A stretch of DNA of 64,000 nucleotides from Collybia mongolica. Taxonomy: Eukaryota; Basidiomycota; Agaricomycetes; Agaricales; Clitocybaceae. Where the stretch lies: NCBI GenBank assembly GCA_013420905.1, contig JAAXNY010000001.1, positions 4,960,001-5,024,000 on the forward strand. The letters run 5' to 3'. Below the pieces are notes generated by a model that did no database searches, had not been told where the DNA came from, and worked only from the letters and a program-made list of their open reading frames with translations. Positions 2,999 to 53,850 of the stretch are shown piece after piece (positions within the stretch are counted from its first letter, which is position 1; the number at the start of each line of letters is the position of its first letter). The position numbers and the translations under genes were made by a program.

Positions 2999-4214
2999 TG
3001 ATAGGGCCCGAAATTGTTTGCACTTATAAAGTCAACAAGTAAGGCTATTAGTGTCATTTCTAATAACCAAGTAAGCGGTAATAAAGGATTAGAGTCGAGC
3101 TCCGAGACGGCTAATCAGAGTGAACTGGTCTAATGGATAATACACTATCAGTACAGAGGACTATGAGTACGGTCTATTATTAGTCCTATTCACCATGCCC
3201 GGTTACAACCTCGGTGTCTTAGTTCATAAGTAACCGTTGTAGTATGATATCATTAGTCCAGGGATCATCATTAATAGGAGAAGTAATTGTAAATTCGGGA
3301 CTTGCACAACCCGATCCTAGGCAGGGGTACTTGGTGTTAACTACCGGAAGTGACGGGACACCGTGAATAGCAACCAGGACAATCAGGAGGAGTAAATGAC
3401 AGCGCTGCGCTGTTTTAAATAACAGAGCGCGCGGTCGGGACTTGATAAGAGTTTAGCCAGCTCTTTCAATATTTGATAAGTAACCAGTAAACGACATAAT
3501 TGGCACGCATGGCGCGCGCGCCAAGTTGTAGTAGACGCATCAGTATTGAATACAGATTCTTGGCGCGCGGGAGCGCGGTTCCGTGTAAAATTTACAATTC
3601 CATATGATATTTAGTTTGTACATTATAAATAGACTGTAGATGAGTAGCGCTAAGGCAAGGAATCTTGCCCCCACTTCGCGCGACTATAGAGTATACAAAT
3701 CACATTTGTTAAAACACTATTGCGTGCCCGAATTAAGGATCAGATTGCTTCAACGTGTCTTGATTGGAATTGATTGGAGAACCACAGAATTAAAGAAACT
3801 TAGTTCACTTGGAACTTAGTACCGTATTGTCCGTTGGAATTACTAGGCACTTGGCCTTAGTGCACTTGGCACTGTATTGTTTGATAAGTCGCTTGGACTT
3901 ATAGATCCGCTTGGGATCATTAATAATTGAACGTACACTTGGTACCCAGTCTATTGGATCGAGAAATATTATAAATATACCTAGCAGGTTTATAAACCTG
4001 TGTTGAAGCTTTTGTCTGAATCAAACCCGTTGGGAGATCATTGAAAAGGGCTTTGGCTAGTACTATTCAAAGCTTAGTGCTTCTAAGCACTTGAACCCGA
4101 ACTCAAAACAGGCAATTCCTACTGTTCGTGTGTTGATTGTTAAGTTTGGTGTGTGTGTGTAAGGGATTACATTTCATAGCATCAGCGCACTTATAGCCCA
4201 GGAGCCCCCTTTCA
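2999..4214 (+). repeat. 5' LTR of Gypsy copy 1
   Basis: This 1216-bp LTR begins TGATAGGGCCCG and ends CCCCCTTTCA. It has a TATAAAT box at 3624-3630. It is rich in GCGCGC palindromes, for example 3511-3522. Near-identical copies lie at 16007-17223, 29677-30894 and 52574-53789. Confidence 0.95.
3624..3630 (+). promoter_or_regulatory. TATA box of the LTR promoter
   Basis: TATAAAT lies in the middle of the LTR and is kept in the other full LTRs (for example 16632 and 30302). It is degraded to TATAGAT in the older LTR piece near 17331. It is the likely core promoter for the genomic transcript. Confidence 0.6.
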
Positions 4215-4216
4215 TC

Positions 4217-4234
4217 TGGAGCCCACCGCGAGGG
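4217..4234 (+). other. Putative primer-binding site, Gypsy copy 1
   Basis: Two bases after the LTR end, TGGAGCCCACCGCGAGGG begins with the TGG expected as complement of a tRNA 3' CCA. The same 18 bases follow the LTR of copy 2 at 17892. The tRNA identity was not determined. Confidence 0.65.
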
Positions 4235-4669
4235 TTCAGAGTTTTGAATAGTCTAAAGAGAGCATCTTTCTTTGAAAAATATTATACCAAGACGAGTAAC
4301 GTCGTCTACAAATTGAAGTAGAGCGGAGAAAGTTTAGTCAATCTGTCTCAAGAGCCGCGCCCACAAGCCAGCTCGTCAAACAGACTAACTAATCAGCCAC
4401 TTGCAAGACAAGTAGCTACAAAAACGCGGAAGACTAAAAATTCGCAAAACGCTGGAGCAACAGAGTCGTTACCACCTCCTAGGCGAGCGCGCACACGAGG
4501 ATCTTCACAACCAGCCTTTGGATCTTCAGGACCAAGGCAAGTATTTAGAACCCCAGAGCCCTTAGGAAACATATCGACTACTAGTAGACCAGTAGCGCGC
4601 GGAAGATCGTCCGTAGTAAACCCAGTAGCAAACCCGAACTTGTTAGCTACTCAGAACCGTTCAGTAATC

Positions 4670-6181
4670 ATGACTGAACCCCCTCGTAAATATATGCCCC
4701 AACCAGGCGTCCGTGATGCACCAGTATTCAAAGGAAAAGAGCCCACGGGTTTAATCCGATTTCTGGAGCGAATGGAAGTCCTATGGAAGGAGTGTAACAT
4801 TACAAATGATGAAGAAAAGAAGTTAATGTTGGGAAAATACGCAGACCTACAATCAGAGAATGAGTGGAGGGCATTAGACCACTATAAGACAGGCACTTGG
4901 ACGGATTTCAAGACAGAGTTGATCTCTAGTTATCCGGAAGCACTCGATCAAGTAGAAGGATCAGTAGCCAAGTTAGAGGCAGTGTGTCGCGCCAACCCAC
5001 GTATTGGAGTAACCGATGAGGCCGCGCTGAAAAAGCTGAAGCGTGAATTCAAAGCAGAATCTATTAAACTCTTGGGAGTTAGGCCACCAATTATCTCTAA
5101 CCGAGAATTAGTTACCAAGTTCTTGGGATGTCTAGACGAAGTCTTCAGATCCCAAGTACAAGGAAGGCTAACCCTGCTAGGGAATAATCAGTCTAATGCT
5201 ACACAGGCAGGACAAGCCGTTGCTACAAACAACCGAGCAGATCCTAATACTATTGCCGAAGCCGCCGCGCTCGCGCAACGAAAAGGGGATCAGTACGATC
5301 TGGAGGAAGTTATAGCAACTGCAATCAGCATTTCTGAAGGTGTAGCCAACATGAATATTCCAGACACAAATAGATCGTTTATAACGTCCGTAACAGCAAC
5401 AGCAGCGCCCAAAATCAAAGTAGAGATGGATGAAATAAAACAACAAATAGTTAATTTGTTAGACCGTCTCCAAGTAAATGAGAAGAATACGAGGAGTGGA
5501 TTCGAGGATGTAATGAAAGCGCTTCAACAAGCAACTGTTCAGAACCATGCCACGAATAGCGCACCCCAGCAGCATCAGTATCAGAATCAGTACGGAAAGC
5601 CTAAAGAAGGACAACCGCAAAGACCAAATGCGTATAAATGTCACTACTGTTTTACACCCGGACACTTCATAATGGCCTGTCCCGAGAAACAGAAACATTT
5701 TGAGGAAGGGAAAATAAAAACCAACGCAAATGGAGGAGTATGCTTACCAGACGGATCATATATTCCAAGAGAACCAGAAACGGTATCATTGAAAGATAAA
5801 GTGGAACACTTCCATTCAAAGAAGGTAGCGGCCCTTTATTACGGAGATGTCACGGAAGGACCCGCCCCAGGAGTATTGTCCGTTATGCAGTCACATAGTG
5901 CAGTAGACAATAGTAACGACATTGGAACCTTGAAAGCCATAATGGCACAAATGGCACAATTTCAAGCGCAACAAATGTTAGGACAACAGAGCGCGCAAAC
6001 CGCGCTGCCAGTAGCGCCTCAGATGCAGAAACAGGAATATATAAATAATAACTATAATCCTATGGCAAAGAGCGCGCCGAACCCTGACATAGTAGCCTTA
6101 CAAGCACAAATGAGTACTTTATTAGGGCAGGTAGCAGAACTCAATAACCAAAACAAGGTTAAAGAGTCGGGTTTCAATTAG
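4670..6181 (+). CDS. Gag-like nucleocapsid polyprotein, Gypsy copy 1
   Basis: This ORF makes the structural protein of the virus-like particle. From the first ATG (4670, MTEPPRKYMPQ) it encodes 503 residues. The frame is open back to 4322 without an ATG, so a non-AUG or spliced upstream start is possible. A CCHC zinc knuckle (CHYCFTPGHFIMAC, Cx2Cx4Hx4C) lies at about 5638-5679 after a Gln-rich linker. A predicted coiled segment precedes it. The C-terminus overlaps the next ORF by 19 bases in the -1 frame with a slippery heptamer at 6169-6175. Copy 2 has the same ATG but a broken frame. Confidence 0.88.
   Translation: MTEPPRKYMPQPGVRDAPVFKGKEPTGLIRFLERMEVLWKECNITNDEEKKLMLGKYADLQSENEWRALDHYKTGTWTDFKTELISSYPEALDQVEGSVAKLEAVCRANPRIGVTDEAALKKLKREFKAESIKLLGVRPPIISNRELVTKFLGCLDEVFRSQVQGRLTLLGNNQSNATQAGQAVATNNRADPNTIAEAAALAQRKGDQYDLEEVIATAISISEGVANMNIPDTNRSFITSVTATAAPKIKVEMDEIKQQIVNLLDRLQVNEKNTRSGFEDVMKALQQATVQNHATNSAPQQHQYQNQYGKPKEGQPQRPNAYKCHYCFTPGHFIMACPEKQKHFEEGKIKTNANGGVCLPDGSYIPREPETVSLKDKVEHFHSKKVAALYYGDVTEGPAPGVLSVMQSHSAVDNSNDIGTLKAIMAQMAQFQAQQMLGQQSAQTALPVAPQMQKQEYINNNYNPMAKSAPNPDIVALQAQMSTLLGQVAELNNQNKVKESGFN
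6169..6175 (+). promoter_or_regulatory. Candidate -1 ribosomal frameshift heptamer, gag to protease
   Basis: G GGT TTC fits the canonical X XXY YYZ slippery pattern in the gag frame, two codons before the gag TAG (6179-6181). A -1 slip enters the protease frame, which is open from 6163. TAGGTC (6179-6184) can pair with GACCTA (6212-6217) just downstream. The heptamer and context are identical in copy 2 (19838-19844). Activity is inferred, not shown. Confidence 0.6.
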
Positions 6182-6186
6182 GTCCG

Positions 6187-7392
6187 ATGAAGGAGGCTAA
6201 GGAACACGCTAGACCTACGACTAGGTCGCGTTCCAAGAGACAGCCAGAGGACCGAAGTAAAAATAGAAATAGTCGTCAAGAAAGTAACGATTCAGAGAGT
6301 AGTCAGGATAGTAGCGGAGAGGAGCTGGTAGCGCCGTCTCCTAGTAAAAGGAAAGTAAAATTTGCTGAACCATCAGTAAAGTCTCCAGTACGAAAAGAAT
6401 TACCCTACATCGATGTGCCCGTGGTACCCTACATACCCCGGAGAACGGAACGCAACCCTGAACCAGTTGATCCGCTACCTAATTTTAACACTAAGCGCGG
6501 TCCGACTTATGAAACTAAGTCCCCGATAGAAGTAAAATTAAAAGGTGGCGATATAATTGCTAAAGTGTTAGACAACCCTATCACATTGACCACGGGAGAG
6601 TTAATGGGCTCGTCAAAAACCATTAGAGATGGAATAAAGAATATTGTAACTGCCAGACGTAAGTCCCTTACCCAAAGGGACGCTAACTTGCAAATAAACG
6701 GAATAGATGAGGAAGACGTCTTACCCTTTGGAGGGGACTGGGAACTTGATGATAACTACTTACGGCATGACGCGCTACCAGTAGAGTCAATCCCATTCCA
6801 GTCTTTCTTCATCTCAGAGTATGACCGCGGTGGAATACCTAAGGGATCTATAATATGCGGGGACCCAGTCCTACAGTATTTAGAATCTTTACCAGCCGGG
6901 GAAGAGCCCAAACAGTTGTATGTAGCAAAAGAATCGGCCTCTTTGCGCGCAGTATATCCAGTAATAAATGGGGTAGGAACGGAGGAATCTTTATTAGATG
7001 GGGGATCCCAAATAGTATCAATGGCTAAACAAACGGCTTTAGACTTGGATATTTCATGGGATCCGGACGTTGTCATACACATGCAGAGTGCTAATAAACA
7101 AGTGGAGAAAACAGCGGGATTAGCGCGCAATGTCCCTTTCTTGTTTAATGACATGGCCATCTACCTCCAAGTACATATTATAAATTCACCCGCATACAAA
7201 GTATTGCTCGGGAGACCGTTTGATACGCTCACGGAAAGTCAGATCAAAAATGCTCGGGACGGGGGACAAGTAGTCACTATCACGGACCCTAACACGGGAC
7301 GAAGGTGTACTATTCCTACCCATGCAAAGGGATCACCGCCTAAGCTGTTGAAAAGACAACCAGAACAGGATTTTCGGCCTTCGATGAATTAA
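6187..7392 (+). CDS. Retropepsin-like aspartic protease ORF, Gypsy copy 1
   Basis: It is predicted to cleave the Gag-Pol polyprotein. From the ATG at 6187 it has 401 residues; the frame opens at 6163, so it is probably a Gag fusion made by -1 frameshifting. The N-terminus is charged and Ser-rich. The catalytic region reads [12 protein letters not shown] at about residues 269-280, followed by the late fold motif LLGRPFD near residue 358. The active-site triad is D-G-G rather than the usual D-T/S-G, in both copies. It ends in TAA at 7392 and overlaps the pol frame (open from 7344) by 49 bases, again in the -1 frame, with no canonical heptamer in that overlap. Confidence 0.82.
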
Positions 7393-7541
7393 TCCAAAGT
7401 GATCAAGGAGAGCTAGCCGTAGAAATTGCTGAAGATGAGGACGGGAACTTTATTATAACGGGTTATAGACACCCTACTGATAAGCGGAATTTTGGTCACA
7501 AAGAACTTAGAGATGTCTTTTTGTCTAGAAGTGATGTAAAC

Positions 7542-10500
7542 ATGAATAGTACAGTACCTGAACGCGAATTACTAGCCACGTACTTGGCTTCCGTAGATGA
7601 GCGCGATGGACCAGTAATAAACTACGAGCAGAACAGTAGGGACCCAGCAAGCACACCCACTAGACCGCTGACATACGCTCAAGAACAGCCCATGATCAAT
7701 AAAGCTTTAAGTAAATTAAAGCAGTGGCAAATTGGCACAAATGAGCGCGGTCTTGGAACGGCAACAAGTGAAAAGTGTAATATTGAGACCATGGATCAGC
7801 TAGTAGGAAAGAAGTATAAACCAGTACATTTGAAAACAAAACCAACACTGGCGGACCTGCCTGATAAATTTAGAATTATCAGAGATATAAAGGGCGACCC
7901 TTTAGCGGCCCTACCAGTTCTAACGCCTAACCCACCTCCGTTTAAACCAACTGGGAGGTACACTGAGGAAAGGCGCGCGGAATTCCAAAGAGTACACGAA
8001 GAAGAAAGCTTCTTAAAACCTAAAGAGATGGATATAATCCACGACTTTATGTGCAAACATAATGATGGTTTTGCTTGGAATGATAGTGAGCGCGGTAGTT
8101 TTAAGAAGGAATATTTTCCTCCCGTCGAAATACCAGTAGTCCCACATACGCCGTGGACAGAGAGGAACATTAGAATCCCACCAGGAATCTATGAAGATGT
8201 TTGTAAAATCATCAAGACAAAAATTGATGCAGGAGTCTATGAGAGATCCAATTCATCATACAGGTCTAGATGGTTTACCGTATTAAAGAAAGGCCCAGGA
8301 AAGAAGCTTAGAATTGTACATAGTCTAGAACCACTGAATGCAGTCACAATAGCGCACTCGGGTCTACCACCCGCTACCGAAGAACTAGCAGAACACTTCG
8401 CAGGGCGCGCTTGTGGCGGAATGATGGATCTATATGTAGGATACGATGAGAGGCCTTTAGCAGAAACCTCGCGCGATCTAACCACGTTCCAAACACCATT
8501 TGGCGCGCTGAGATTAGTAACACTCCCTATGGGATGGACGAATTCTGTTCCAATATTTCATGACGATGTCACGTACATCCTACAGGATGAGGTACCACAT
8601 GTCACAATACCCTATATTGATGATGTACCCGTGCGCGGTCCAGCAACGCGCTACGAACTACCGGACGGAACAGAAGAAGAGCTACCTGGTGCTCCAGGTG
8701 TTAGGCGCTTCTTCTGGGAACATATGCAAAATGTAAATTGCGTCGTACAGAGAATGAAGTATTCTGGAGGAACATTTTCAGGATATAAGTCTATGTTATG
8801 CGCAAGTGAAATTCTAGTGGTAGGACATAGATGTACCTATGAAGGACGAAAACCTACTACAGATAGAATCGGTGTAGTTGAAAGATGGGGACCATGCAAA
8901 GATGTCAGTGAAGTACGCGCTTACATGGGAACTATTGGTGTATGCAGGAATTTCATTAAAGACTTCGCCCGTATAGGTCAACCAATTCAAAAGTTAACTA
9001 GGAGTAGTGAACCTTGGATATGGGGGCCTGAGCAAGAAGAAGCGCAGCAGCTATTATTAGACGCACTTAAAAATAGCCCCGCGCTCCGTCCAATTAATTA
9101 CACCTGGAATACGCCAGTAGTACTGTCAGTAGATACGTCATGGAAAGCCGTAGGCTACTATATCTACCAGGAAGACCCTGATATACCTGGAAGAAAGCAC
9201 TATGCTAGATTTGACTCGATAACTCTGAATGAGCGCGAAGCGCGCTTCTCACAACCCAAACGAGAGCTATTCGGATTAATGAGAGTTCTAATGGCATGTT
9301 ATTATTGGTTTATTGGAGTACGAAATTTGGTAGTGGAAACGGATGCAAAGTACATTAAGGGGATGTTATCAAACCCAAGTTTAGGACCTAATGCAACGGT
9401 AAATAGGTGGATTGATAGGATACTTATGTTCCACTTTACTTTGGTTCATAAAGCTGGTAAAGGCTTTGGCCCAGACGGTCTGTCAAGACGCGACGCGCGG
9501 CTAGAGGATCCTGTCTACCCGGACCCAGACGATGGTTACGACGAACCCTCAGGTCCTTTAAGGTTTATCAACCCAACGGAAGGATTGGATGACCCTTTGG
9601 AACTGTCAGACTTTAAAGAGGAGATCGACACGCGCGGCGGATATTTATTCCAACTTGCAAAGGAAATCTCTGATTTTGAAGTGGAAGTAAACAATGCCTG
9701 GGCTGGTGAAGCGGCATTTATTGGAGAAGTAAAACAGCACTTAGGTTTAGGACGGTTCGGTATTCAAAGAGAAGCTTATCTAAAGCAACTTGTAAATACT
9801 ACTGTCATACCTGATGAAAAGTTTAAATATGACCCTAATGTAAGGGAAGTATATGATGAGTCTAAACGAACACCTACGGCACTGGAACAGGATAAAAACC
9901 TACCTTTAATAAAAGAATGGTTAAAAAGACCACAAAAGAGACCAAAAGGAATGACAGATCGCGCCTACCTAAAGTTTGCAAGGCAGGCGTCTAATTTCTT
10001 TTTGGATCCAGAAGGCAGGATGTATAGGAAAAATATCGATAGCGCGCACCAGCTTGTTGTTGATAAAAATCACCGAACATATATGATGAAGGCGTCTCAC
10101 GATTCTGTTGGACATAGGGGTTTCTATGCAACAAAATCCTTAATAGATAAAAGATTTTGGTGGCCAGAAATGGAACGCGATGTATCATGGTATGTGAAGT
10201 CATGTCACATCTGTCAGACAAGGCTCTTAACTTTGTTGAGAATCCCTCCTGTCATAACCCACACGCCGTCTATATTCCAAGTATTGCATGCGGACACCAT
10301 GTATATGAGCCCATCGTCTAATGGCTATAAATACATTGTCCAAGGAAGATGTGCGCTGTCTTCATGGATGGAAGGCGCGCCCCTCAAATCTGAGGATGGC
10401 AAGACCTTGGGAAGGTGGCTGTTCGAAGAAGTAATTTGTAGATGGGGTTCTCTAACGGAAATTGTAACGGATAATGGTCCTGCCTTTGTCGCAGCCAAAG

Positions 10501-11387
10501 CGTGGCTGGAATCCAAGTATGGTATTACAGGAATAAGTATATCACCATACAATTCCAAAGGAAATGGGATCGCCGAGCGCGCACATTGGGATGTGCGTCA
10601 AGCTGTCTTCAAAGCTACAGGTGGTGATGTAAAGAAGTGGTACTACTTCTTCCACCATGTAATGTGGGCTGACAGGATTACTATACGGAAAGGGACGGGT
10701 TGCTCCCCCTATTTTATGATTACGGGCGCGCACCCAACCTTACCGTTAGATATCATTGAAGCCACTTGGTTAGTAAAGTTACCAGGAAAAATATTGACTA
10801 CAGAGGAACTCATTGGGTTTAGAGCGCAGGCTCTAGCTAAGCACGTCCAGCATGTGGCCGATATGAGGAAACGTATCAATATAGAAAAACGAAGGAGACT
10901 ATTACAGTATGAGAAGGATCACAGCGCGACCATCAGAGACTATGATTTCAAACCAGGAAGTTTAGTACTAGTTAGAAATACCGAGGTCGAAAGTTCGCTC
11001 GATAAAAAGCTGAAGCCACGGTACCTGGGACCAATGATAGTCCTGAGACGAAACCGCGGGGGAGCCTATATTGTTTGTGAAATGGATGGATCGGTGTGGC
11101 AACATAAAGTGGGGGCGTTTAGGGTTATTCCCTATTTTGCTAGGAGTACAATTGAACTGCCGGATAATCTGCAAGATCTAATAGACATCTCTAGCGAAAC
11201 ATTAAATGCTTTAGTGGAATCGAAAGATCCCGCTAATAGACAAGTTTATAAGGAGCGTGACTATACCTTTGACAGAGTCCAATTGGATCAGTCCGATTCA
11301 GAGTCAAGCTCTAGTGAAAACACTGAAGAGGGGATAGCGCCGGCGCTACCACAAACTACTATGTCACACCGGAAGTTGCATAAGTGA
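7542..11387 (+). CDS. Pol: reverse transcriptase, RNase H and integrase, Gypsy copy 1
   Basis: This is the replication and integration enzyme. The first ATG is at 7542 ([10 protein letters not shown]; about 1281 residues), but the frame is open from 7344 and overlaps protease. Order: RT with the catalytic YIDD at 8613-8624; RNase H with Asp in VLSVDTSW (~9123), Glu in KREL (~9258) and Asp in VETDAK (~9337); integrase H2C2 finger with CHIC at ~10204; DDE residues at ~10290 (HADT), ~10468 (VTDNG) and ~10573 (GIAERAH). A C-terminal [10 protein letters not shown]...GGAYIV module resembles the GPY/F module. Domain order RT-RH-INT marks Ty3/Gypsy. No internal stop is present. Confidence 0.95.
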
Positions 11388-11533
11388 TAAATCAGTATGA
11401 AAACAGAAGCAGTAAAGACAGTGTAAGCAACGAAGCTAAGTAGTAAGGACAGTGTTAAACCGAGTAAAGACAGTAATACAAAGGAGCGTGGGGAGGGACA
11501 CCATAACTAAGGAGGAAGTTAATTGGACTACCC

Positions 11534-12913
11534 TCAAGCAGATATGAAGTCGTCTTCAACCTCGGGCAAGGGCACGTCAGCCGGAGCTACCTCCTCTTTA
11601 TCATTGTCATCCTGGTCATGGACTTCGGTAGCGCTCGCAGTGGCAGCCTCGTCAGAGCCTCCCTCCAGAGCGGCCTCGTTCATTAGACCGTTGAGGCGAG
11701 TAACCTCGTCCATAGTGGCGTCACGACGCTTCAATAAGAAGGACACTGTATGACTGATCTCCTCCAACTCAGCGCGGTAGTTTAAAAGCATCCTACCGAG
11801 GGCTTGCTTGGTGTGTGACAAGGGATCGCCCGCGTCAGCAATCAAGCGCGCCCGCGCTAAGACTACATCGTGCTCCTTGGAGGGACGGAAGTCAATAAAG
11901 ACACGAGTATCTGATACACAGTCAGTATAAAATTAGAACCATCTATTATTAGAAAACGTACCCTCAGCAGATGCCTTTGGATCTTCATCCGGGGTGTCCT
12001 GCCTCGTACGCTTTTTGGGACGAAGAGTACTGCCGCGGTTGAGCTCGGAACGCTTACCGTCCTGTAGGAATGAGAAACAAAGTAATAGACAGAGCAAAAA
12101 CAAGAATGGGTACCTTGATGGCAGCCTTTTCAGCCTTAGTCCTTTTGACACGGGGAACCTTAATGTTCTCCTTCTCCTTGCGACTACGGGTGATTGGTCC
12201 TTCACTAAGGAGACGACTAGTCACTGGTCCAGAGACAGTAGCGCTAGCCGTAGCGCCGGAATCAATGACCATATTCTTGAGTAAAGAAGAGACGCCATTG
12301 AGTATGTCGCGCACTGACAGCGCGGTAGCTAAAAAGAAACATACCGAGTCAGTACCAGACATTTCAATGTCACCGTCATATTCACCGCCAGCAATGACCT
12401 CGCCTGGAATAGCGGGACTATCCGCATCACCACCAGTAGCAGGGACCTAGTACCAGAAAACCATGGTTTAAGAACAGTACAGTGCAAGATAAGGTAAAAA
12501 GCACGCACCGCGGTTTGAGACAGGTGCTCGGTGCGGACCTTTTCACGGTGACGGTGAATAGCGGCAGTAAGAGTCACAATGTTGCGGTAGACGGGTTCTT
12601 GAAGTAACTCGGGGTATACATGTTGTAGTCCCTGGAATGCTTTACGGACGCCAAAGATAACATTCTGCCAGGACCGCTCCGTCAAAACCATTTTGGACTC
12701 AGTCAGGAGTAGCTGTAAATTGTAAAAGTTGTTACGATAACGGCGTATATAAGTTAATTGGTAAAAAGTGTACCGCAGGCTTTCGCCTAACTTCCGGACG
12801 CTGACCCTTTGTTCAACAAGGGTGTCCATCGATAAACGAGCTTGAAAGGTGTGCCACTGAGCTTGGACCATCTTGAAGTTCTCGATGTCTTGATAGTTGG
12901 GGGGGCTAGTCAT
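11534..12913 (-). CDS. Antisense accessory gene A in Gypsy copy 1 (4 exons, 404 aa)
   Basis: I built this model from GT-AG splicing on the minus strand: exons 12913-12509, 12446-12114, 12061-11962 and 11910-11534, introns 51-63 bp, all joins in frame. It starts MTSPPNYQDIENFK and ends EVEDDFISA. The N-terminal half is a helix-rich region of aromatic and basic residues (LRYTFYQLTYIRRYRNNFYN). The middle is strongly basic (VKRTKAEKAAIK, RPKKRTRQ) and could carry a nuclear signal. The C-terminus is acidic. I do not recognise a domain. A TATA-like box lies ~105 bp upstream. Copy 2 has the same layout but a damaged exon 1. Confidence 0.65.
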
Positions 12914-13609
12914 AATGATGCAGAGGAAATTGATTCTTCGAACCAGAACGTTGTAAAGAGAGTATAATAGAGTCGGGCGATGTCTTTGGACAGAAAGCAC
13001 AGCCAGTGCCCTTTTTATACCTCTACGACTAGAGAAGCGCTATCCAGTCTCTCATTCGTTGCGCGCGCTTCTATCCTCCAGAAAAATCTATACATTTCAA
13101 CTGAACAGGTCCGAGACGCGTGCCTAATTGAAATGCTGGGCCCAATTGAAAAAGGAGCTCCGTAAAAATTCATGTGGAGCGCGGCAGTGTCCGCATGACA
13201 ACTGGGACAGTTGTTATCAGTGTTGAGGGGGAGATGGGTATAAGCAAAATCGAATTGGAAAAACCTACCAAGGTTACAAGGATTGAAATAGATTGTCTAT
13301 AAAAGTCAGTGATCGCGCCACGGTCTTAATGATCGAGAGAATTGCACCGAATTAAACCGTACTATTTATAACTTAAGTAGCCGGGGCAAGGGCGGAAGCT
13401 TTCTTATGAAGACAATAGAACAACGGCAAAACCAATTGTATTGTTTATAGTCCAGGGGACTGTATATAAGACATGTGTTGGACTTCAATTAAAGAATTGA
13501 AGCCCAACGAAAGGCGGGGGAACTTAGGTAGCAGTAATAAAAGGGCCAGGGGCCCGGGAAAACACATATAGATAAAAAAAAAACGTAGGTGGGGGGGGGC
13601 GCGGCGCGG
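12914..13609. other. Spacer between antisense genes B and A
   Basis: No ORF of interest. It contains the gene A promoter region, a purine run TGAGGGGGAGATGGG near 13223, an inverted repeat around 13484-13505 (GACTTCAATTaaagAATTGAAGCC), and poly-A and G-rich tracts near 13575-13600 just past the end of gene B. Confidence 0.5.
13011..13019 (-). promoter_or_regulatory. TATA-like box for antisense gene A
   Basis: On the minus strand GTATAAAAAGGGCACTGG lies about 100 bp upstream of the gene A ATG. The same block is kept in copy 2 near 26681-26690. It suggests gene A has its own promoter rather than depending on the LTR. Confidence 0.5.
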
Positions 13610-15555
13610 CTACTCCTCCTCGCTGTCAGGCACGGACGCAGAAGATCTTGACGACGAAGAACCTGTCATCAACCTCTACTTCTTCTTCCAAGGGCGGCCA
13701 AGGGAGATTCTGGAAGTCCGCGTAGAAGAGGAGGGCGCTCTCCGTGGCTGGCGTAGTCAGCAAGAGGTTTTGAAGGCCCTCCAGGCCTTCCTCCTCGTAC
13801 AACCTACCAATGGTGCCAACTATGCGCGCCAACAAGGAGTCGCGCATTTCAAGCGCGCGGTTAGCGGCCTGAATGACCTCCGCGGCAAGGGTGTCCGCGT
13901 CGCCGAGCTGAGCATAGGCTTCAGCAACCGCTAGTAGAATAAGTAAAATCAGTAGTAAACAAAAAGACGGAAAGAAGATGGCTTACTAGAAATGCCCGCA
14001 CCAAGCATGGGCCCCAGATCCTCACGGAGCCTAGCACGCTTCTGGGGAGTGAGGCTGAAGCTGCACTTCCCCTTCTTGGCGGTGGCGCATTCCATGCACG
14101 GTTTACCCCAACCGTTGAAGGTGCACTCAATGTCGCCGCGGGTGGCGCACATCGTGCAAGGATAGCCCACCTAGTAAAAATGATCAGTAACAAGAAATAA
14201 AGTAGTAATAAACATACGGAAGAGCGCCGCGGCGCAAGGTCAGCCAGCAGGGAGGTAATAGGGGACTGGAGCGGCGTCAGCTCCCGGTTGGGAACCAGCG
14301 CGTGCTTACGGTGTGTCGCCTGAGCCCTATCCCTAGAGCGGGTGGTCTTACGCGACTGACGAGGAGAAGGGGCCGCGGGAGGCAACAACTCCGCGAACCC
14401 CTCTTGAGCCAACTGGCGTGCGACCTCATCATCGAAGAGCTGAAGCTCAGGGACTTCAACCTTCACCGGCGGCTGCCCAGAGGACTAAGGAGATAAAGAT
14501 GAGTGAACGTAAATGACTTCAGAAAGAGACATACCGGGCCTGCTTCCGAGGGACGCAGCGCGGAAGCACTGCCAGTCCCCTGGGCGCGCGACATGTCGGA
14601 CTAGAATTGTGAAATCAAGTCAGCAATAATGTGAAACTCGTAAAGTAAAGGATATACCTGGGGAACCGCACGGCCTTTTCCCTTGGACCCAGCATTACGC
14701 TTCCGCTTGAGGGGCTATTAAAATAAGTCAACTACCGAAGAAAAGTAATAAAAAGCAGTAATAAACGAACCGCGGGTACCAAGACCGGGGAGCGCGCCGG
14801 CAAGGGCGCGGCGGACCAATTGTCCTGGTACTGATGGTAACGGCGCGGCGCGCCAACCATGCGAGGCGGGACGAGGAAAGTATCCCGAAAGATACTATCA
14901 CCATTGTCGCGCTCGAAGCGCGACCCCACCTGGTCAAGGACTTGCTCCACTGTGGGAGCCTGGCCCTAAAAGAAAAAGGTAGTCAGCTTGACAAAGGGAG
15001 GCAGAGTAAAGAAGTAAACAAGTTATTTACCAGAAGAATGGAGTTGGCGCCCAGGTCAGTCGATATGACCGTACGCCAGGACGACCACGAAGCATCGCGC
15101 GCGTCAACTGGGATGCGCATCACTTGAAGGTGAAGCGCGCGCAGGAGGAGGATAGCCGGATATGGCAGTGAGAAACGCGCGCCACGGACCACGCCAGTGA
15201 TGGCATCCTGAGACCAGTAAATAAGTAAAAGGAATTAACAAGTAAAAGATGGGCGTACGATGAGCATGGAGCAGTGATCGACAAAGTCGATCAAGTCGTC
15301 AAGGTCAAGCGGACCCTGATGGTCCATACGGGGCGCGAGCTCCTCGGCCATGATAATCCACCCTTGCTCCATAGCGACGAAGACGTCGCCCTCGGCATCT
15401 TCGAGGAGGTCAGGGAAGGAAGGGATCGGCTGGTCCACATAGACCATGGTGGGGGAACGGCCCTCAGTCGGCAGAATCGCGGCAGAGAGCGGGAGAGACA
15501 GCGCGGAAGGCGAGCGCAGAGCACGAGCCATGGCGGAAGTGGAAGTGGAAGACAT
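13610..15555 (-). CDS. Antisense accessory gene B in Gypsy copy 1 (8 exons, six-cysteine protein)
   Basis: Minus-strand model: exons 15555-15259, 15207-15031, 14965-14771, 14714-14658, 14600-14535, 14484-14218, 14170-13987 and 13930-13610. Introns are 47-65 bp with GT-AG ends, and every join stays in frame. The start is MSSTSTSAMARALRSPS. Exon 4 is basic (PLKRKRNAGSKGKGR). Exon 7 carries six cysteines at about residues 358-389 with spacing Cx2Cx7Cx8Cx2Cx7C, a likely zinc-binding module. Exon 8 ends in a Glu/Asp/Ser-rich tail. Copy 1 has one extra base near 13666 relative to copy 2, which shifts the last residues; the copy 2 version has 520 residues. Function unknown; a nuclear nucleic-acid-binding role is inference. 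Confidence 0.7.
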
Positions 15556-15657
15556 TTCTGTTTGAAAAGAGTCGGGGCGTTTGAGCGATGCAGATAGCAA
15601 AGAGATTTAGAAATGGGCTATAAAGTCCAAATTGTCTAAAACTTAGCAAGGACGCGA

Positions 15658-15667
15658 GCTTTTTAAA
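15658..15667 (-). promoter_or_regulatory. TATA-like box for antisense gene B
   Basis: On the minus strand GCGTTTTAAAAAGCTC sits about 105 bp upstream of the gene B ATG, the same distance as the box of gene A. The motif is kept in copy 2 near 29327-29337. Confidence 0.4.
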
Positions 15668-15994
15668 ACGCACAACCCTGCATTGCGAAGCTCTAAAGAA
15701 CAAACAGGAGTACCGATCTCTTGCTGAAGTGTCAGAAACATAACGAGAAAAATGTCCAGATGACTGAAATATCTGTAAAGCGATGTCCGAATGTCAAGTA
15801 CTCTCTCAGGAGACGTATATAGCTGTCACGATCCTGATGGGAAGTAAACCTCTGGGCTCGATCCCAACATCGCGCGCCTACCTGTCTAAAAGCGGAACCG
15901 TTGTAACATTGTACTGAAAGATTAGACGCGTGCAGACCCGAAGTATTGGACCAACCTGCCGGCAAAGAGAGACTGAGGACAGTCTACATTTGTG
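15668..15994. other. Sub-LTR region upstream of gene B
   Basis: No coding signal on either strand. It holds sequence upstream of the antisense gene B promoter and leads into the polypurine tract. It is well conserved with copy 2 (29338-29664). Confidence 0.4.
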
Positions 15995-16006
15995 GTATGG
16001 GGGAGA
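15995..16006 (+). other. Polypurine tract, Gypsy copy 1
   Basis: A purine-rich GTATGGGGGAGA run directly abuts the 3' LTR start at 16007. It is identical before the copy 2 3' LTR (29677). It is the expected plus-strand primer. Confidence 0.7.
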
Positions 16007-17223
16007 TGATAGGGCCCGAAATTGTTTGCACTTATAAAGTCAACAAGTAAGGCTATTAGTGTCATTTCTAATAACCAAGTAAGCGGTAATAAAGGATTAG
16101 AGTCGAGCTCCGAGACGGCTAATCAGAGTGAACTGGTCTAATGGATAATACACTATCAGTACAGAGGACTATGAGTACGGTCTATTATTAGTCCTATTCA
16201 CCATGCCCGGTTACAACCTCGGTGTCTTAGTTCATAAGTAACCGTTGTAGTATGATATCATTAGTCCGGGGATCATCATTAATAGGAGAAGTAATTGTAA
16301 ATTCGGGACTTGCACAACCCGATCCTAGTCAGGGGTACTTGGTGTTAACTACCGGAAGCGACGGGACCCCGTGAATAGCAACCGGGACAATCAGGAGGAG
16401 TAAACGACAGTGCCGCGCTGTTTTAAATAACAGAGCGCGCGGTCGGGACTTGATAAGAGTTTAGCCAGCTCTTTCAATATTTGATAAGTAACCAGTAAAC
16501 GACATAATTGGCACGCATGGCGCGCGCGCCAAGTTGTAGTAGACGCGTCAGTATTGAATACAGATTCTTGGCGCGCGGGAGCGCGGTTCCGTGTAAAATT
16601 TACAATTCCATATGATATTTAGTTTGTACATTATAAATAGACTGTAGATGAGTAGCGCGAAGGTAAGGAATCTTGCCCCCACTTCGCGCGACTATAGAGT
16701 ATACAAATCACATTTGTTAAAACACTATTGCGTGCCCGAATTAAGGATCAGATTGCTTCAACGTGTCTTGATTGGAATTGATTGGAGAACCACAGAATTA
16801 AAGAAACTTAGTTCACTTGGAACTTAGTACCGTATTGTCCGTTGGAATTACTAGGCACTTGGCCTTAGTGCACTTGGCACTGTATTGTTTGATAAGTCGC
16901 TTGGACTTATAGATCCGCTTGGGATCACTAATAATTGAACGTACACTTGGTACTCAGTCTATTGGATCGAGAGATATTATAAATATACCTAGCAGGTTTT
17001 TGAACCTGTGTTGAAGCTTTTGTCTAAATCGAACCCGTCGAGAGATCATTGGAAAGGGCTTTGGCTAGTACTATTCAAAGCTTAGTGTTTCTAAGCACTT
17101 GAACCCGAACTCAAAAACAGGCGATTCCTACTGTTAGTGTGTTGATTGTTAGGTTTGGTGTGTGTGTGTAAGGGATTACATCTCATAGCATCAGCGCACT
17201 CATAGCCCAGGAGCCCCCTTTCA
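16007..17223 (+). repeat. 3' LTR of Gypsy copy 1
   Basis: TGATAGGGCCCG to CCCCCTTTCA, about 1217 bp. It is nearly identical to 2999-4214, with small differences such as GCGCTAAGGC versus GCGCGAAGGT. Confidence 0.95.
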
Positions 17224-17889
17224 CCGTGCGCCAAGTCATAGAGGATGCGTCAGCATTAAATACGATCCTTGCACAGGGGAGCACAGTTCTGTATAAAATT
17301 TACAATTCCGTATGATATTTAGTTTGTACACTATAGATAGACTGTAGGTGAGTAGCGCAAAGGCAAGGAATCTTGCCCCCACTTCACACTACTATAGAGT
17401 ATACAAATCACATTTGTTAAACACTATTGCGTGCCTGAATTAAGGCTCAGATTGCTTCAAAGTTGTCTTGATTGGAATTGTTTGAAGAAATCAAAGAATT
17501 GAAGAGTAGTTCACTTGGAACTTAGTACCGCATTGTCTGTTGGAATTACTAGGCACTTGGCCTTAGTGCACTTGGCACGTTTATTTAATAAGTTGCTTGG
17601 GATCATTAATAATTGAACGTACACTTGGACTCAGTCTATTGGATCGAGAGATATTACAACTAACCTAGCAAGTTTTAAACTTGTGTTGAAGCTTTGTCTG
17701 ACTCAAACCCGTTGAGAGATCATTGGAAAGGGCTTTGGCTAGTACTATTCAAAGCTTAGTGCTTCTAAGCACTTGAACCCGAACTCAAAACAGGCAATTC
17801 CTACTGTTCGTGTGTTGATTGTTAGGTTTGGTGTGTGTGTGTGTGAAGGATTACATTACATAGCATCAGCGCCCAGGAGCCCCCTTCCA
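17224..17889 (+). mobile_element. Older Gypsy LTR, 3' part; 5' LTR remainder of copy 2
   Basis: It resumes the LTR at the GCGCCAAG position and runs to CCCCCTTCCA, directly followed by the TCTGG primer-site context of copy 2. It carries many substitutions and small indels against the young copies, with loss of GCGC motifs (GGCGCGCGGGAGCGCGG reads GCACAGGGGAGCACAG). Confidence 0.85.
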
Positions 17890-17891
17890 TC

Positions 17892-17909
17892 TGGAGCCCA
17901 CCGCGAGGG
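17892..17909 (+). other. Putative primer-binding site, Gypsy copy 2
   Basis: The same 18-base TGGAGCCCACCGCGAGGG follows the LTR end, as in copy 1. Confidence 0.6.
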
Positions 17910-25202: not shown

Positions 25203-26584
25203 TCAAGCAGATATGAAGTCGTCTTCAACCTCGGGCAAGGGCACGTCAGCCGGAGCTACCTCCTCCTTATCATTGTCATCCTGGTCATGGACTTCCATAG
25301 CGCTCGCAGTGGCAGCCTCGTCAGAGCCCCCCTCCAGAGCGGCCTCGTTCATTAGACCGTTGAGGTGAGTAACCTCGTCCATAGTGGCATCACGACGCTT
25401 CAATAAGAAGGACACTGTATGACTGATCTCCTCCAACTCAGCGCGGTAGTTTAAGAGCATCCTACCGAGGGCTTGCTTGGTGTGCGACATGGGATCGCCC
25501 GCGTCTGCAATCAAGCGCGCCCACGCTAAGACTACATCGTGCTCCTTGGAGGGACGGAAGTCAATAAAGACACGAGTATCTGATGCACAGTCGGTATAAA
25601 TTTAGAACCATCTATTATTAGAAAACGTACCCTCAGCAGATGCCTTTGGATCTTCATCCGGGGTGTCCTGCCTCGTACGCTTTTTGGGACGAAGAGTGCT
25701 GCCGCGATTGAGCTCAGAACGCTTACCGTCCTGTAGGAATAAGAAACAAAGTAATAGACAGAGCAAAAACAAGAATGGGTACCTTGATGGCAGCCTTTTC
25801 AGCCTTAGTCCTTTTGACACGAGGAACCTTAATGTTCTCCTTCTCCTTGCGGCTACGGGTGATTGGTCCTTCACTAAGGAGACGACTAGTCACTGATCCA
25901 GAGACAGCAGCACTAGCCATAGCGCCGGAATCAATGACCATATTCTTGAGTAAAGAAGAGACGCCATTGAGTATGTCGCGCACTGACAGTGCGGTAGCTA
26001 AAAAGAAACATACCGAGTCAGTACCAGACATTTCAATGTCACCGTCATATTCACCGCCAGCAATGACCTTGCCTGGAATAGTGGTACCATCCGCTTCACC
26101 ACCAGTAGCAGGGACCTAGTACCAGAAAACCATAGTTAAAGAGCAGTACAGTACGAGATGAGGTAAAAAGCACGCACCGTGGTTTGAGACAGGTGCTCAG
26201 TGCGGAGCTTTTCACGGTGACGGTGAATAGCGGCAGTCAGAGTCACAATGTTACGGTAAACAGGCTCTTGAAGTAACTCGGGGTATACATGTTGTAGTCC
26301 CTGGAATGCCTTACGGACGCCAAAAATAACATTCTGCCAGGACCGCTCCGTCAAAACCAATTTGGACTCAGTCAGGAGTAGCTGTAAATTGTAAAAGTTG
26401 GTTACAAAAACAGCGTTTTAAAAAGTGTAATTGGTAAAAAGTGTACCGCGGTTTCGCCTAACTTCCGGACGCTGACCCTTTGTTCAACAAGGGTGTCCAT
26501 CGATAAACGAGCTTGAAAGGTGTGTCACTGAGCTTGGACCATCTTGAAGTTCTCGATGTCTTGATAGTTGGGGGGGCTAGTCAT
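25203..26584 (-). pseudogene. Antisense gene A of Gypsy copy 2, damaged exon 1
   Basis: Exons 2-4 and their splice sites match copy 1, ending at 25203. Exon 1 starts at the same MTSPP (ATG at 26584) but is rearranged near 26399-26455, where short indels break the frame between the LLLTESK segment and the N-terminus. The TATA-like block near 26681 is kept. Confidence 0.6.
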
Positions 26585-27272: not shown

Positions 27273-29223
27273 CTACTCCTCCTCGCTGTCAGGCACGGAC
27301 GAAGAGGAACTTGACGACGAAGAACCGTCATCAACCTCTGCTTCTTCCTCCAAGGGCGGCCAAGGGAGGTTCTGGAAATCCGCGTAGAAGAGGAGAGCGC
27401 TCTCCGTGGCTGGCGTAGTCAGCAAGAGGTTTTGAAGGCCCTCCAGGCCTTCCTCCTCGTACAACTTACCGATGGTGCCAACTATGCGCGCCAACAAGGA
27501 GTTGCGCATTTCAAGCGCGCGGTTAGCGGCCTGAATGACCTCCGCGGCAAGAGAGTCCGCGTCGCCTAGCTGAGCATAGGCTTCAGCAACCGCTAGTAGA
27601 ATAAGTAAAATCATTAGTAAACAAAAAGACAGAAAGAAAATGGCTTACTAGAAATGCCCGCACCAAGCATCGGCCCCAGATCCTCACGAAGCCTAGCGCG
27701 CTTCTGGGGAGTGAGGCTGAAGCTGCACTTCCCCTTCTTGGCAGTGGCGCATTCAATGCTCGGTTTACCCCAACCGTTGAAGGTGCACTCAATGTCGCCG
27801 CGGGTGGCGCACATCGTGCAAGGATAGCCCACCTAGTAAAAATGATCAGTAACAAGAAATAAAGTAGTAATAAACATACGGAAGAGCGCCGCGGCGCAAG
27901 GTCAGCCAGCAGGGAGGTAATAGGGGACTGTAGCGGCGTCAGCTCCCGGTTGGGAACCAGCGCGTGCTTGCGGCGTGTCGCCTGAGCCCTATCCCTAGAG
28001 CGGGTGGTCTTACGCGACCAACGAGGAGAAGGGGCCACGGGAGGCAACAACTCCGCGAACCCCTCTTGAGCCAACTGGCGTGCGATCTCATCATCGAAGA
28101 GCCGAAGCTCAGGGACCTCAACCTTTACCGGCGGCTGCCCAGAGGACTAAGGAGATAAAAATGAGTAAAAGTAAATGAGTTCAAAAGAGAAAAGAGACAT
28201 ACCGGACCTGCTTCCGAGGGACGCAGCGCGGAAGCACTGCCAGTCCCCTGGGCGCGCGACATGTCAGACTAGAATTTTGAAATCAAGTCAGCAATAATGT
28301 GAAACTCGTAAAGTAAAGGATATACCTGGGGAACCGCACGGCCTTTTCCCTTGGACCCAGCATTACGCTTCCGCTTGAGGGGCTATTAAAATAAGTCAAC
28401 CACCGAAGGAAAGTAATAAAAAGCAGTGATAAACGAACCGCAGGTACCAAGACCGGGGAGCGCGCCGGCAAGGGCGCGGCGGACCAATTGTCCCGGTACT
28501 GATGGTAACGGCGCGGTGCGCCAACCATGCGAGGCGGGACGAGGAAAGTATCTCGAAAGATACTGTCACCATTGTCGCGCTCGAAGCGCGACCCCACCTG
28601 GTCAAGGACTTGCTCCACAGTGGGAGCCTGGCCCTAAAAGAACAAGGTAGTCAGCTTGACAAGGGGAGGCAGAGTAAAGAAGTAAACAAGTTATTTACCA
28701 GAAGAATGGAGTTGGCGCCCAGGTCAGTCGATATGACCGTACACCAGGATGACCACGAAGCCTCGCGCGCGTCAACTGGGATGCGCATCACTTGAAGGTG
28801 AAGCGCGCGCAGGAGGAGGATAGCCGGATATGGCAGTGAGAAACGCGCGCCACGGACCACGCCAGTGATGGCATCCTGAGACCAGTAAATAAGTAAAAGG
28901 AGTTAACAAGTAAAAGATGGGCGTACGATGAGCATGGAGCAGTGATCGACAAAGTCGATCAAGTCATCAAGGTCAAGGGGACCTTGGTGGTCCATACGGG
29001 GCGCGAGCTCCTCGGCCATGATAATCCACCCTTGCTCCATAGCGACGAAGACGTCGCCCTCGGCATCTTCGAGGAGGTCCGAGAAGGAAGGGATCGGCTG
29101 GTCCACATAGACCATGGTGGGGGAACGGCCCTCAGTCGGCAGAATCGCGGCAGAAAGCGAGAGGGACAGCGCGGAAGGCGAGCGCAGAGCACGAGCCATG
29201 GCGGAAGTGGAAGTGGAAGACAT
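27273..29223 (-). CDS. Antisense gene B of Gypsy copy 2 (8 exons, 520 aa)
   Basis: Exons 29223-28927, 28875-28699, 28633-28439, 28382-28326, 28268-28203, 28146-27880, 27832-27649 and 27592-27273 join in frame to a 520-residue product ending in a poly-Ser/acidic tail (VPDSEEE). All seven introns keep GT-AG although element sense genes in this copy are broken. The fourth of the six cysteines is replaced by Ser (GKPSIEC), so the zinc module may be impaired. Function unknown. Confidence 0.68.
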
Positions 29224-29676: not shown

Positions 29677-30894
29677 TGATAGGGCCCGAAATTGTTTGCA
29701 CTTATAAAGTCGACAAGTAAGGCTATTAGTGTCATTTCTAATAACCAAGTAAGCGGTAATAAAGGATTAGAGTCGAGCTCCAAGACGGCTAATCAGAGTG
29801 AACTAGTCTAATGGATAATACACTATCAGTACAGAGGACTATGAGTACGGTCTATTATTAGTCCTATTCACCATGCCCGGTTACAACCTCGGTGTCTTAG
29901 TTCATAAGTAACCGTTGTAGTATGATATCATTAGTCCGGGGATCATCATTAATAGGAGAAGTAATTGTAAATTCGGGACTTGCACAACCCAATCCTAGTC
30001 AGGGGTACTTGGTGTTAACTACCGGAAGCGACGGGACACCGTGAATAACAACCAGGACAATCAGGGGGAGTAAACGACAGTGCCGCGCTGTTTTAAATAA
30101 CAAAGCGCGCGGTCGGGACTTGATAAGAGTTTAGCCCGCTCTTTCAATATTTGATAAGTAACCAGTAAACGACATAATTGGCACGCGTGGCGCGCGCGCC
30201 AAGCTGTAGTAGACGCGTTGGTATTGAATACAGATCCTTGGCGCGCGGGAGCGCGGTTCCGTGTAAAATTTACAATTCCGTATGATATTTAGTTTGTACA
30301 TTATAAATAGACTGTAGATGAGTAGCGCTAAGGCAAGGAATCTTGCCCCCACTTCGCGCGACTATAGAGTATACAAATCACATTTGTTAAAACACTATTG
30401 CGTGTCCGAATTAAGGATCAGATTGCTTCAACGTGTCTTGATTGGAATTGATTGGAGAACCACAGAATTAAAGAAGCTTAGTTCACTTGGAACTTAGTAC
30501 CGTATTGTCCGTTGGAATTACTAGGCACTTGGCCTAAGTGCACTTGGCACTGTATTGTTTGATAAGTTGCTTGGACTTATAGATCCGCTTGGGATCGCTA
30601 ATAATTGAACGTACACTTGGTACTCAGTCTATTGGATCGAGAGATTTTATAAATATACCTAGCAGGTTTTTGAACCTGTGTTGAAGCTTTTGTCTAAATC
30701 GAACCCGTTGAGAGATCATTGGAAAGGGCTTTGGCTAGTACTATTCAAAGCTTAGTGCTTCTAAGCACTTGAACCCGAACTCAAAACAGGCAATTCCTAC
30801 TGTTCGTGTGTTGATTGTTAGGTTTGGTGTGTGTGTGTGTGAAGGATTACATTACATAGCATCAGCGCACTTATAGCCCAGGAGCCCCCTTTCA
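29677..30894 (+). repeat. 3' LTR of Gypsy copy 2
   Basis: 1218 bp, TGATAGGGCCCG to CCCCCTTTCA. It is close to the solo LTR at 52574-53789 (both have GTCGACAAG near the start) and clearly different from its own 5' LTR. Confidence 0.93.
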
Positions 30895-31972
30895 GCGGGT
30901 AGACCTTGCAGGATTTCCCTTCTGCGTCGCGGACGAGTTCGATCGCGTGGTCCCACGGTCGGCGATCTGGGAGAGCATCGAAGGACGTCTTGGAGAACAC
31001 ATCCTCAAATTCGTGGACGTGCGCCGGTGCTAGATCGAAAAACGTCTTGGGTTGCACATTACGATCAAAGGAGTCTGCGATCTGCTGGGACGCGTTCTTC
31101 CGGGCTTCCGTTTGGATCTTTTCCGCTAGTCGCTGCGAGATGGTTTGGGTTGTCCGAATCTCTTCCGGTGCCTTCTGAAACTGTCCTGGTTCGCCGATGT
31201 TGACCACGAAGATACGGTCGCCCTCTTTGATGCAATCTTCAAGGGCGATATCTCCTTCGTGCTCAGAGTCGGGAACCTCTCCAATTTCTGTTTCTGGTTC
31301 GGGCATGGGTCCTGCGCGACAGGCGTTGATGCGGGCCTCCAATTTACGCTTCTCCGCCTTTTCCGATTTAACCTCGTTCGCGCAGGTCCAACATTTGTCG
31401 GGACAGCGACTCATCTTCACCTCGTTGGTCTGCCAGTTGATCTCCAGGTTGTGCTCCTGCAACCAAGTGTAGCCCAGTATGAGATCCTGCTTCCCTAGGC
31501 TGGTGACCGCGAAGTGGGTGCGTTCTGAGTGACCGTTGTACTGGAGGATGAGGTCTACGATCTCCGAAATAGACCCGTTCTCGTTCGGAGTGCCGTCGAC
31601 GTTGAACACCGGAATAGTGCGAACTAGCTTGCGCGAGGTCAACCTGTTCCTCCGCACGAATTCAGAATCGATGAAAAGGCCCGTTGCTCCCGAGTCTACC
31701 AAGCTGTTCGTCGCGAATGTCTCGCCTGTGTTGGTCGTCTGAAGTTCAATCTTGAGCTTCAGCGAGCGAGTGCTGGGGGTGGCGGCGACTACAAATCGCT
31801 TGGGTAAAGCTCGTTCCCATCGGGGGAGTCTCTGGCGCGGCGGTTTAGGGACAGGGATGGTATCTTGTACGGCTTCTGTAGTAGTTTCGGGTGTTTGGGA
31901 ACTTTCAATTGTATTCTCAACTTCTAAACACGCGAACCTATTTACAGATGACAGCAAGGGCGTACTGTTCAC
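30895..31972 (-). pseudogene. Truncated protease-pol ORF of a second Gypsy family
   Basis: Minus-strand ORF starting at 31972 whose ATG overlaps the upstream gag stop (ATGA). A retropepsin motif, VDSGATGLFID, lies near residue 91-101, followed by LILGYTWLQEHN. The frame reaches the first residues of RT (KSCKVYPL) and is cut there by the LTR end at 30894. The remaining RT, RNase H and integrase are absent from the window. This family differs from the large element in codon use and motif. Confidence 0.88.
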
Positions 31973-33156
31973 TCGCTGTCCGCTACAAAACCCTCTTGAG
32001 TGGTTGCGAACGTTTCCCCTTCTTCCGCCAGCAGTTCAACTTGTGCATCTATCATCGCGAAGATGTGCTGCGCGAACTCATGCTGCTCCTCCATTGACAT
32101 GAACCGCGTGTCGTAGTGGAGGGGGCAGTCCTTCCGGAAATGGCCCGGCTGCTTACATCGGTGGCAGGTCTCGATGTTCGTTCGAGCCCTCCGCATCGCA
32201 TCTACATCCATCGGAACCGGTGGAGGGAGAGCAGGGGGCGGCGGAGGTGGTGGTGGCGCCATCCGTTGCAGCGTCGGGGCTGAGAAGTGCGGCGGTGCGC
32301 GAAACGCCGAGGTAGTGCGTGCGGGAGGTGCGCGAGCCGCCGGTTTAGTGCTCAGGAAGGCCTCGTTGGTGAGGCGGTTTTCATCGCACTTCATTGCCGC
32401 TACATACCACTGTTCCGGCTGATTGTCCGCTGGTCGTCCCACTGCCATCGTCGCGATCTGCAACTGAATCTCCCCGCTCAGTCCCTTCCGGTACTTCACC
32501 ACAATCGTCAACCCCTCCTTGTATCCCGACTTGTCGATGAGATCCCTGAACTCATCCGTGTAGTCGTCCACCGATCGCGATCCTTGGTGGTAGCTGCTCG
32601 TTTCCAACCTCGTAATCGCCCGCTGCGCTTCGCTCTGCACGAAGAAGTTGACCGCGAAGTCGGTGCGGAATAGGGCCCATGTCGTGTACTTCAGGTTCCC
32701 GGTAGCGGTCTGGTATCACATGGCCCGGTCCGCGAACAGATACACTCGGCCTTTCTTCATGAAGGTGTACGCCCACCGTACCTGCGTCACTTCATCCACG
32801 AACTGGTGTGGTACAAGATTTATATACAGTTCGCATGCGTTAATGAACGCACGCCCTCGTTCGCGCGATCCGTCGAAGTCATCGGGAAGCGATGGCCGGA
32901 GTGCTGAAGGTCGTCCCGAATTAACGTGGGTCGCGGGGGGAGGTGTTGATACATTATTTACAGGGGCGCTGGGTGCAGGGGTATTGACCGGGGGTGGGGG
33001 AGCCGCGGTTTGGAGCACGATCAGCGCGTTGATGCTGTCGGTGAGCTTCTTAAGCTGCTCGGCTTGTTCCTCCGCCTTCCTATTGAGATCTCCTACGTCT
33101 CGTTTGATGTTATCCATCCTCGTTTCGGCGTCCATCGGCCGGAGTAGGAGTTCCAC
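31969..33156 (-). pseudogene. Gag-like ORF of the second Gypsy family
   Basis: From ATG 33156 (MELLLRPMDAETRMDN) the frame covers a coiled-coil start (LNRKAEEQAEQLKKLTDSI), a Pro-rich linker, a retrotransposon Gag domain and a CCHC knuckle (CHRCKQPGHFRKDC, ~32125-32170), ending at 31969. One in-frame TGA at 32716-32718 interrupts the Gag domain (RAM*YQTATGNLKY). CGA to TGA would explain it. Confidence 0.85.
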
Positions 33157-53789: not shown

Positions 53790-53850
53790 CCGCTTCTGTA
53801 CTTTTGTATTGCGGTATATAAAAACGTTGAAGGAAAAAAAAAAAAAAAAA

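Follow-up and report, generated by a model that had tools for sequence, protein, structure and literature searches.

Introns are not expected to survive in elements that are copied by way of RNA. How, then, does an LTR retrotransposon of the agaric Collybia mongolica come to hold two intron-rich genes on its minus strand, and what might these genes do? Both questions arise from the window, by which we mean the whole 64,000-nucleotide stretch of DNA analysed. Our overall reading, to which we give a probability of about 0.6, is that they are antisense accessory protein genes that keep their introns through their orientation and are probably nuclear regulators of the element.

The element that carries them spans 14.2 kb and is laid out as follows (copy 1).

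2999–17223, plus strand: whole element copy 1, a Ty3/Gypsy LTR retrotransposon
2999–4214, plus strand: 5' LTR of copy 1, with ends TGATAG...TTTCA
4640–6181, plus strand: gag-like ORF with a zinc knuckle (PF13696, E 6.7e-6, marginally below the Pfam cut-off)
6187–7392, plus strand: ORF2, with a weak DUF4100 match below the cut-off
7521–11387, plus strand: pol, with reverse transcriptase, RNase H and integrase in Gypsy order
16007–17223, plus strand: 3' LTR of copy 1, with the purine tract GGGGGAGA just before it

Paired LTRs with TG...CA ends, the purine tract and a primer-binding-site-like stretch, which starts with TGG 2 bases past the 5' LTR of copy 1, are those of a Ty3/Gypsy element. The same holds for the domain order of pol, where RVT_1 (weak) lies at positions 295–437, RNase H at 501–634 and integrase at 847–1011. 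A second copy directly adjoins the first, and its 5' LTR (17225–17900) is without its first part. Another partial LTR, a 521-bp piece at 2478–2998, stands ahead of the 5' LTR of copy 1, and the two look as if they had arisen by recombination between tandem copies. The window also holds a solitary LTR of the same Gypsy family at 52574–53789, flanked on either side by CCGC, a possible 4-bp target duplication. Two arms of a 1311-bp inverted repeat (53850–55160 and 61347–62657; 99.9% identity) lie about 6.2 kb apart. Just past copy 2, gag and aspartic-protease ORFs of a different retroelement occupy 30818–32640 on the minus strand.

The interval from pol to the 3' LTR measures 4.6 kb. In both window copies it holds two multi-exon genes on the minus strand, just as the earlier note had claimed. 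We call them A and B; A precedes B when they are read in their own direction of transcription.

13610–15555, minus strand: antisense gene A, 8 exons, 7 introns, 520 codons
15555–15259, 15207–15031, 14965–14771 and 14714–14658, minus strand: exons 1–4 of A
14600–14535, 14484–14218, 14170–13987 and 13930–13610, minus strand: exons 5–8 of A
11534–12913, minus strand: antisense gene B, 6 exons, 5 introns, 360 codons
12913–12774, 12712–12509 and 12446–12345, minus strand: exons 1–3 of B
12275–12114, 12061–11962 and 11910–11534, minus strand: exons 4–6 of B
25203–26584, minus strand: second-copy gene B, interrupted by a stop codon in exon 1
27273–29223, minus strand: second-copy gene A, uninterrupted frame of 520 codons, substitution at one cysteine of the motif

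Introns of copy 1 measure 47–65 nt in A and 51–69 nt in B, 12 in total, and all are in phase 0 except the last intron of each gene, which is in phase 1. Introns this short, like the type of element, agree with a fungal host. These models derive from the comparison of 22 aligned copies, namely window copies 1 and 2 (W1 and W2) and 20 fetched from elsewhere in the genome; three further sequences, L029–L031, were added. GT and AG ends stand at every intron in all 22. The earlier note had proposed genes of four and eight exons with eleven GT-AG joins. Eight exons are confirmed for A, and copy 1 alone does suggest 11 joins; taken together, the copies give 12 joins and six exons for B, so that the lower exon count was dropped. 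The discrepancy goes back to damage at the first splice junction of B in copy 1, where a length change absent from the other 21 aligned copies makes intron 1 read through. The frameshifted end that had been reported is indeed present at the 3' end of the eight-exon gene, where a second length change makes the frame of A stop early at 13626, but it too is private to copy 1 among the 22.

Damage of this kind is not the rule. B is damaged in both window copies, W1 and W2, and its 360-codon frame is intact in the remaining 20 of the 22; the 520-codon frame of A is intact in 18 and broken in W1, L015, L023 and L024, the last two of which are cut by contig ends. Copies with both frames intact occur elsewhere in the genome. 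The module DNA matches at least 37 places in the 46 Mb (26 contigs) searched; there are 38 matches, one of them a 53-base piece beside another, and the count is a lower bound, window copy 2 being absent from the list. Set against these places, the analysis covered 22 module copies and L029–L031. With a 1.9-kb pol query, 40 of 132 candidates were scored, and at 38 of these 40 the last exon of B lies antisense, 150–151 bp downstream. An antisense coding region in the interval from pol to the 3' LTR is therefore found in most copies, and homologues in other Gypsy copies, for which the earlier note had asked, do exist beside pol. At one of the two remaining pol matches (G000:C9:3181391–3183278), B lies about 10 kb further along in the expected orientation, and the gap fits a later insertion. 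The other (G000:C10:1588279–1590166) has neither an adjoining B nor any B match among those listed. A search with the last exon of B alone returned 113 matches from 113 candidates at 71–100% identity, some of them pieces of one copy; a stop codon was present in four. Two groups of copies (L010 and L025 against the window copies) are less than 1% apart in B and pol and 4–8% apart in the A half, suggesting exchange of A across lineages by template switching or recombination.

Are these frames maintained as protein-coding sequence? Tallying variants once per site, we counted 49 nonsynonymous and 90 synonymous changes in A, with 93 and 44 expected without selection (omega 0.26; nominal p 2e-15). 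The corresponding numbers are 30 and 40 against 47 and 22 in B (omega 0.35; nominal p 1e-5), and 52 and 124 against 116 and 55 in pol (omega 0.20; nominal p 4e-25). These counts omit W1, L015 and L024 for A, W1 for B and L029–L031 throughout, and pol is represented by 21 of the 22 copies, L016 being truncated. When CpG positions are set aside, omega is 0.17 for A, 0.36 for B (p 0.002) and 0.16 for pol. Four controls that read the same exons shifted by 1 or 2 bases gave values of 2.07–2.49 (2.15–4.33 without CpG), which assigns the signal of selection to the predicted frame. Indels point the same way, with 8 gap intervals in 691 intron columns and 3 in 2649 exon columns (Fisher p = 3e-4; L023 and L024 omitted), all three exon gaps being private to single copies. 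The evidence is statistically weaker for B than for A. Neither value is near 1, the outcome that would have spoken against the genes in the earlier note's dN/dS check, and pol is constrained alongside them. The frame-specific test and the many copies lead us to regard A and B as protein-coding genes of the element, and on these sequence comparisons it is nearly certain that they are real, selected and spliced.

The same data bear on the idea that A and B are passengers: two ordinary genes on a piece of host DNA that was taken up in antisense on one occasion and has hitchhiked since without benefit to the element. A single capture would account for the fixed position, and both genes do resemble ordinary intron-rich fungal genes and are similar to no known element protein. 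Mere hitchhiking fits poorly with omega values of 0.26 and 0.35 that are specific to the frame and near that of pol. Moreover, all 113 matches to the last exon of B are 71–100% identical and none resembles a single distant host parent gene, although adjacency to pol could be compared with 40 pol matches only. We consider this origin distinctly unlikely as an explanation of the module. An even more improbable alternative, to which we give hardly any weight, is a nested DNA transposon that became fixed in an ancestral Gypsy element. DNA transposons commonly have genes with introns and the position is fixed, but no terminal repeats occur between the tested flanks (7–8-base matches only) and no transposase-like Pfam match was obtained.

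How the introns outlive copying of the element would follow from established retrotransposon biology: the sense genomic RNA would contain them only as complements, which the host could not splice, and they would reach each new copy intact. Engineered retroviral vectors with reverse-oriented, intron-bearing globin genes rely on antisense placement to preserve introns through reverse transcription. The logic is shared, with the difference that it is engineered there and natural here. A search with the first 864 nt of spliced A (40 scored of 120 candidates) returned no contiguous intronless copy among the matches listed. Listed matches that cross an exon joint of A are longer in the genome by the length of the intron, as with 526 genomic against 475 query bases. 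In another search, every listed match that reaches at least two residues past the first joint of A includes the stop codon of the intron.

Older copies tell the same story. L030 and L031 are decayed, at 83 and 85% identity to the module in the window, and have all 12 introns in place with GT-AG ends kept. In both, B retains a 1083-nt frame free of inner stops and A as modelled is broken; L029 covers only the part around B. Introns thus persist in young and old copies alike, as expected from the earlier note's proposal that antisense placement protects them, and it is very probable that this placement is what preserves the introns of A and B.

Cytosine methylation typically leaves its trace as decay of CpG to TpG or CpA. 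Where a young copy has CpG, L030 reads TpG or CpA at 192 of 269 sites and L031 at 162 of 268, so that the host appears to methylate this Gypsy family. Such methylation is one reason to ask whether the antisense transcripts matter rather than the proteins, by pairing with genomic RNA and feeding RNA silencing or self-limitation. The transcripts would overlap RNA of the region from pol to the 3' LTR, and the plant case is discussed in the available text of PMC7264820. A non-coding role, however, requires neither that constraint track the spliced codon frame nor that indels avoid exons. Transcript and protein roles could coexist, but we judge it very unlikely that the transcripts are what counts.

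The protein genes are proposed to have promoters of their own, and the earlier note had placed a TATA-like box about 105 bp upstream of each gene.

13010–13019, minus strand: TATA-like box TATAAAAAGG, candidate promoter of B, 106 nt before the B ATG in copy 1
15659–15668, minus strand: weak TATA-like box TTTTAAAAAG, 113 nt before the A ATG

This is borne out for B, whose box was seen within 60–160 nt in 22 of 25 scanned sequences. For A it was seen 112–113 nt before the ATG in 15 of the 25. Some of these sequences are incomplete, which accounts for only part of the misses, and the A box is accordingly not firmly conserved.

The predicted proteins give few clues of their own. A, of 56 kDa, has a basic cluster KRKR; B, of 40 kDa, has KRTK and PKKRTR. 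One region of A stands out.

13987–14170, minus strand: exon 7 of A, six-cysteine motif C-x2-C-x7-C-x8-C-x2-C-x7-C, in 19 of 22 copies

The consensus of the Zn2Cys6 fungal DNA-binding domain is C-x2-C-x6-C-x5-12-C-x2-C-x6-8-C. The motif of A comes near it but lies outside, its first long spacing being 7, and a Pfam search at E up to 10 returned nothing, so the assignment was rejected. A match to ferredoxin-thioredoxin reductase (E 0.19–0.85) was treated as chance. No Pfam relatives of A or B were found, nor any convincing ones among the solved structures of the PDB. With regard to TRP28 of the plant element Retand, neither protein matched a Pfam family at E up to 1, and Pfam may not include TRP28. 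Comparisons of A with B, and of either with gag, ORF2 and pol, gave only chance-level matches. The structure model of exon 7 of A is poor (pLDDT 60). The last exon of B, its C-terminus, is predicted to form a long helix over residues 27–88 of 122 (mean pLDDT 73.5); a fold search with this model gave 21 matches, none at E 0.001 or better.

Given that neither Pfam nor the PDB provides a relative, a DNA-binding or regulatory role is argued from composition and position. We propose that A and B would each be transcribed from their own promoter, against the element, and that the host would splice the transcripts. Both proteins may then enter the nucleus by means of their basic clusters, where A could act in trans on the DNA, transcription or chromatin of the element through its six-cysteine module, with B as a helical, perhaps oligomeric, partner. 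Position, the basic clusters and likeness to the plant gene Grande gene23 suggest nuclear regulation as the function, which we hold tentatively, at somewhat less than even odds. The direction of such regulation could also be the reverse of help, with A and B as self-limiting repressors that control copy number. Nuclear-type basic clusters and conservation are compatible with either direction, and the present data are silent on it; the many young copies, however, fit a helper at least equally well, and we regard repression as unlikely. Returning to accessory genes that serve the element, splicing could be a strand filter: packaged genomic RNA would never yield A and B, only integrated DNA copies would, and the proteins would hence act for the integrated state, for instance by opposing host methylation. 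That this is an intron-rich, two-gene regulatory module, stably carried in antisense for such an end, is a possibility we put forward more tentatively still.

Outside this genome, searches for the module returned little. No full-length homologue of A was found among 7994 scored proteins, which is weak evidence of absence since the length window leaves out single-exon fragments. A five-row profile of the last exon of B retrieved a single match of 85 aa from the protein database, identical to the window (P0121). With 7993 candidates scored, the same database yielded 1148 relatives of pol at E 1e-10 or better, and the best full-length one is 76% identical; a pol piece gave no confirmed relative in the viral and genome contig collections. 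This disparity indicates that the module is lineage-specific, that it evolves fast, or that it was missed because its exons are not called as proteins. P0121 and a pol fragment, P0003, both 100% identical to the window, each come from a 3612-base contig, possibly the same public one.

Twelve introns kept in two selected genes show how an element copied through RNA can carry complex, host-like genes. With many young copies and clear junctions, the element is a testable system for the role of antisense accessory genes in LTR elements, and annotation may be listing genes such as A and B as host genes. Among known systems, HBZ of HTLV-1 is an antisense, spliced gene whose product is a bZIP protein; Pfam detects no bZIP domain in A or B. 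HBZ, named in the available text of PMC11963269, is likewise an antisense gene of a reverse-transcribing element with a nuclear product, but the HTLV antisense promoter lies in the 3' LTR according to that of PMC7264820, whereas the candidate boxes here are internal. Genes placed in antisense between pol and the 3' LTR are already known, and intron-rich ones are without a description in the literature searched: judged by titles and the openings of abstracts, with most subscription papers outside coverage, no LTR retrotransposon with intron-rich antisense genes was recognised.

An antisense gene, brtn, was reportedly described by Zhao et al. in 2011 in the Boty element of Botrytis cinerea. The available parts of the citing papers present Boty of Botrytis and Sclerotinia as a fungal case (cited in PMC7264820) and name its antisense gene brtn (PMC8365987). 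The earlier note's statement that antisense ORFs are known in some plant LTR elements is thus right for plants but incomplete (PMC7264820). Boty resembles our element in being a fungal LTR element with an extra antisense gene downstream of pol (PMC7264820, PMC8365987); it has one such gene where ours has two, and the likeness is taken from description in the citing papers. PMC5408684 treats additional ORFs of rotifer LTR elements and PMC12477816 an opposite-strand gene in a DNA transposon.

The closest parallels come from plant Gypsy elements, for which PMC11963269 and PMC7264820 treat antisense genes placed in this way as an established category. There, Grande gene23 is driven by a promoter of its own and encodes a nuclear product, and most copies of Grande (gene23), RIRE2 and Retand (TRP28) have their antisense genes, as here, downstream of pol and ahead of the 3' LTR (PMC7264820, PMC11963269). 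Neither paper uses the word "intron" in its main text, and the review among them calls for a search for spliced antisense transcripts. For A and B, Pfam gave no match. Compared with Grande, RIRE2 and Retand, the Collybia element stands apart in having two antisense genes with 12 introns between them.
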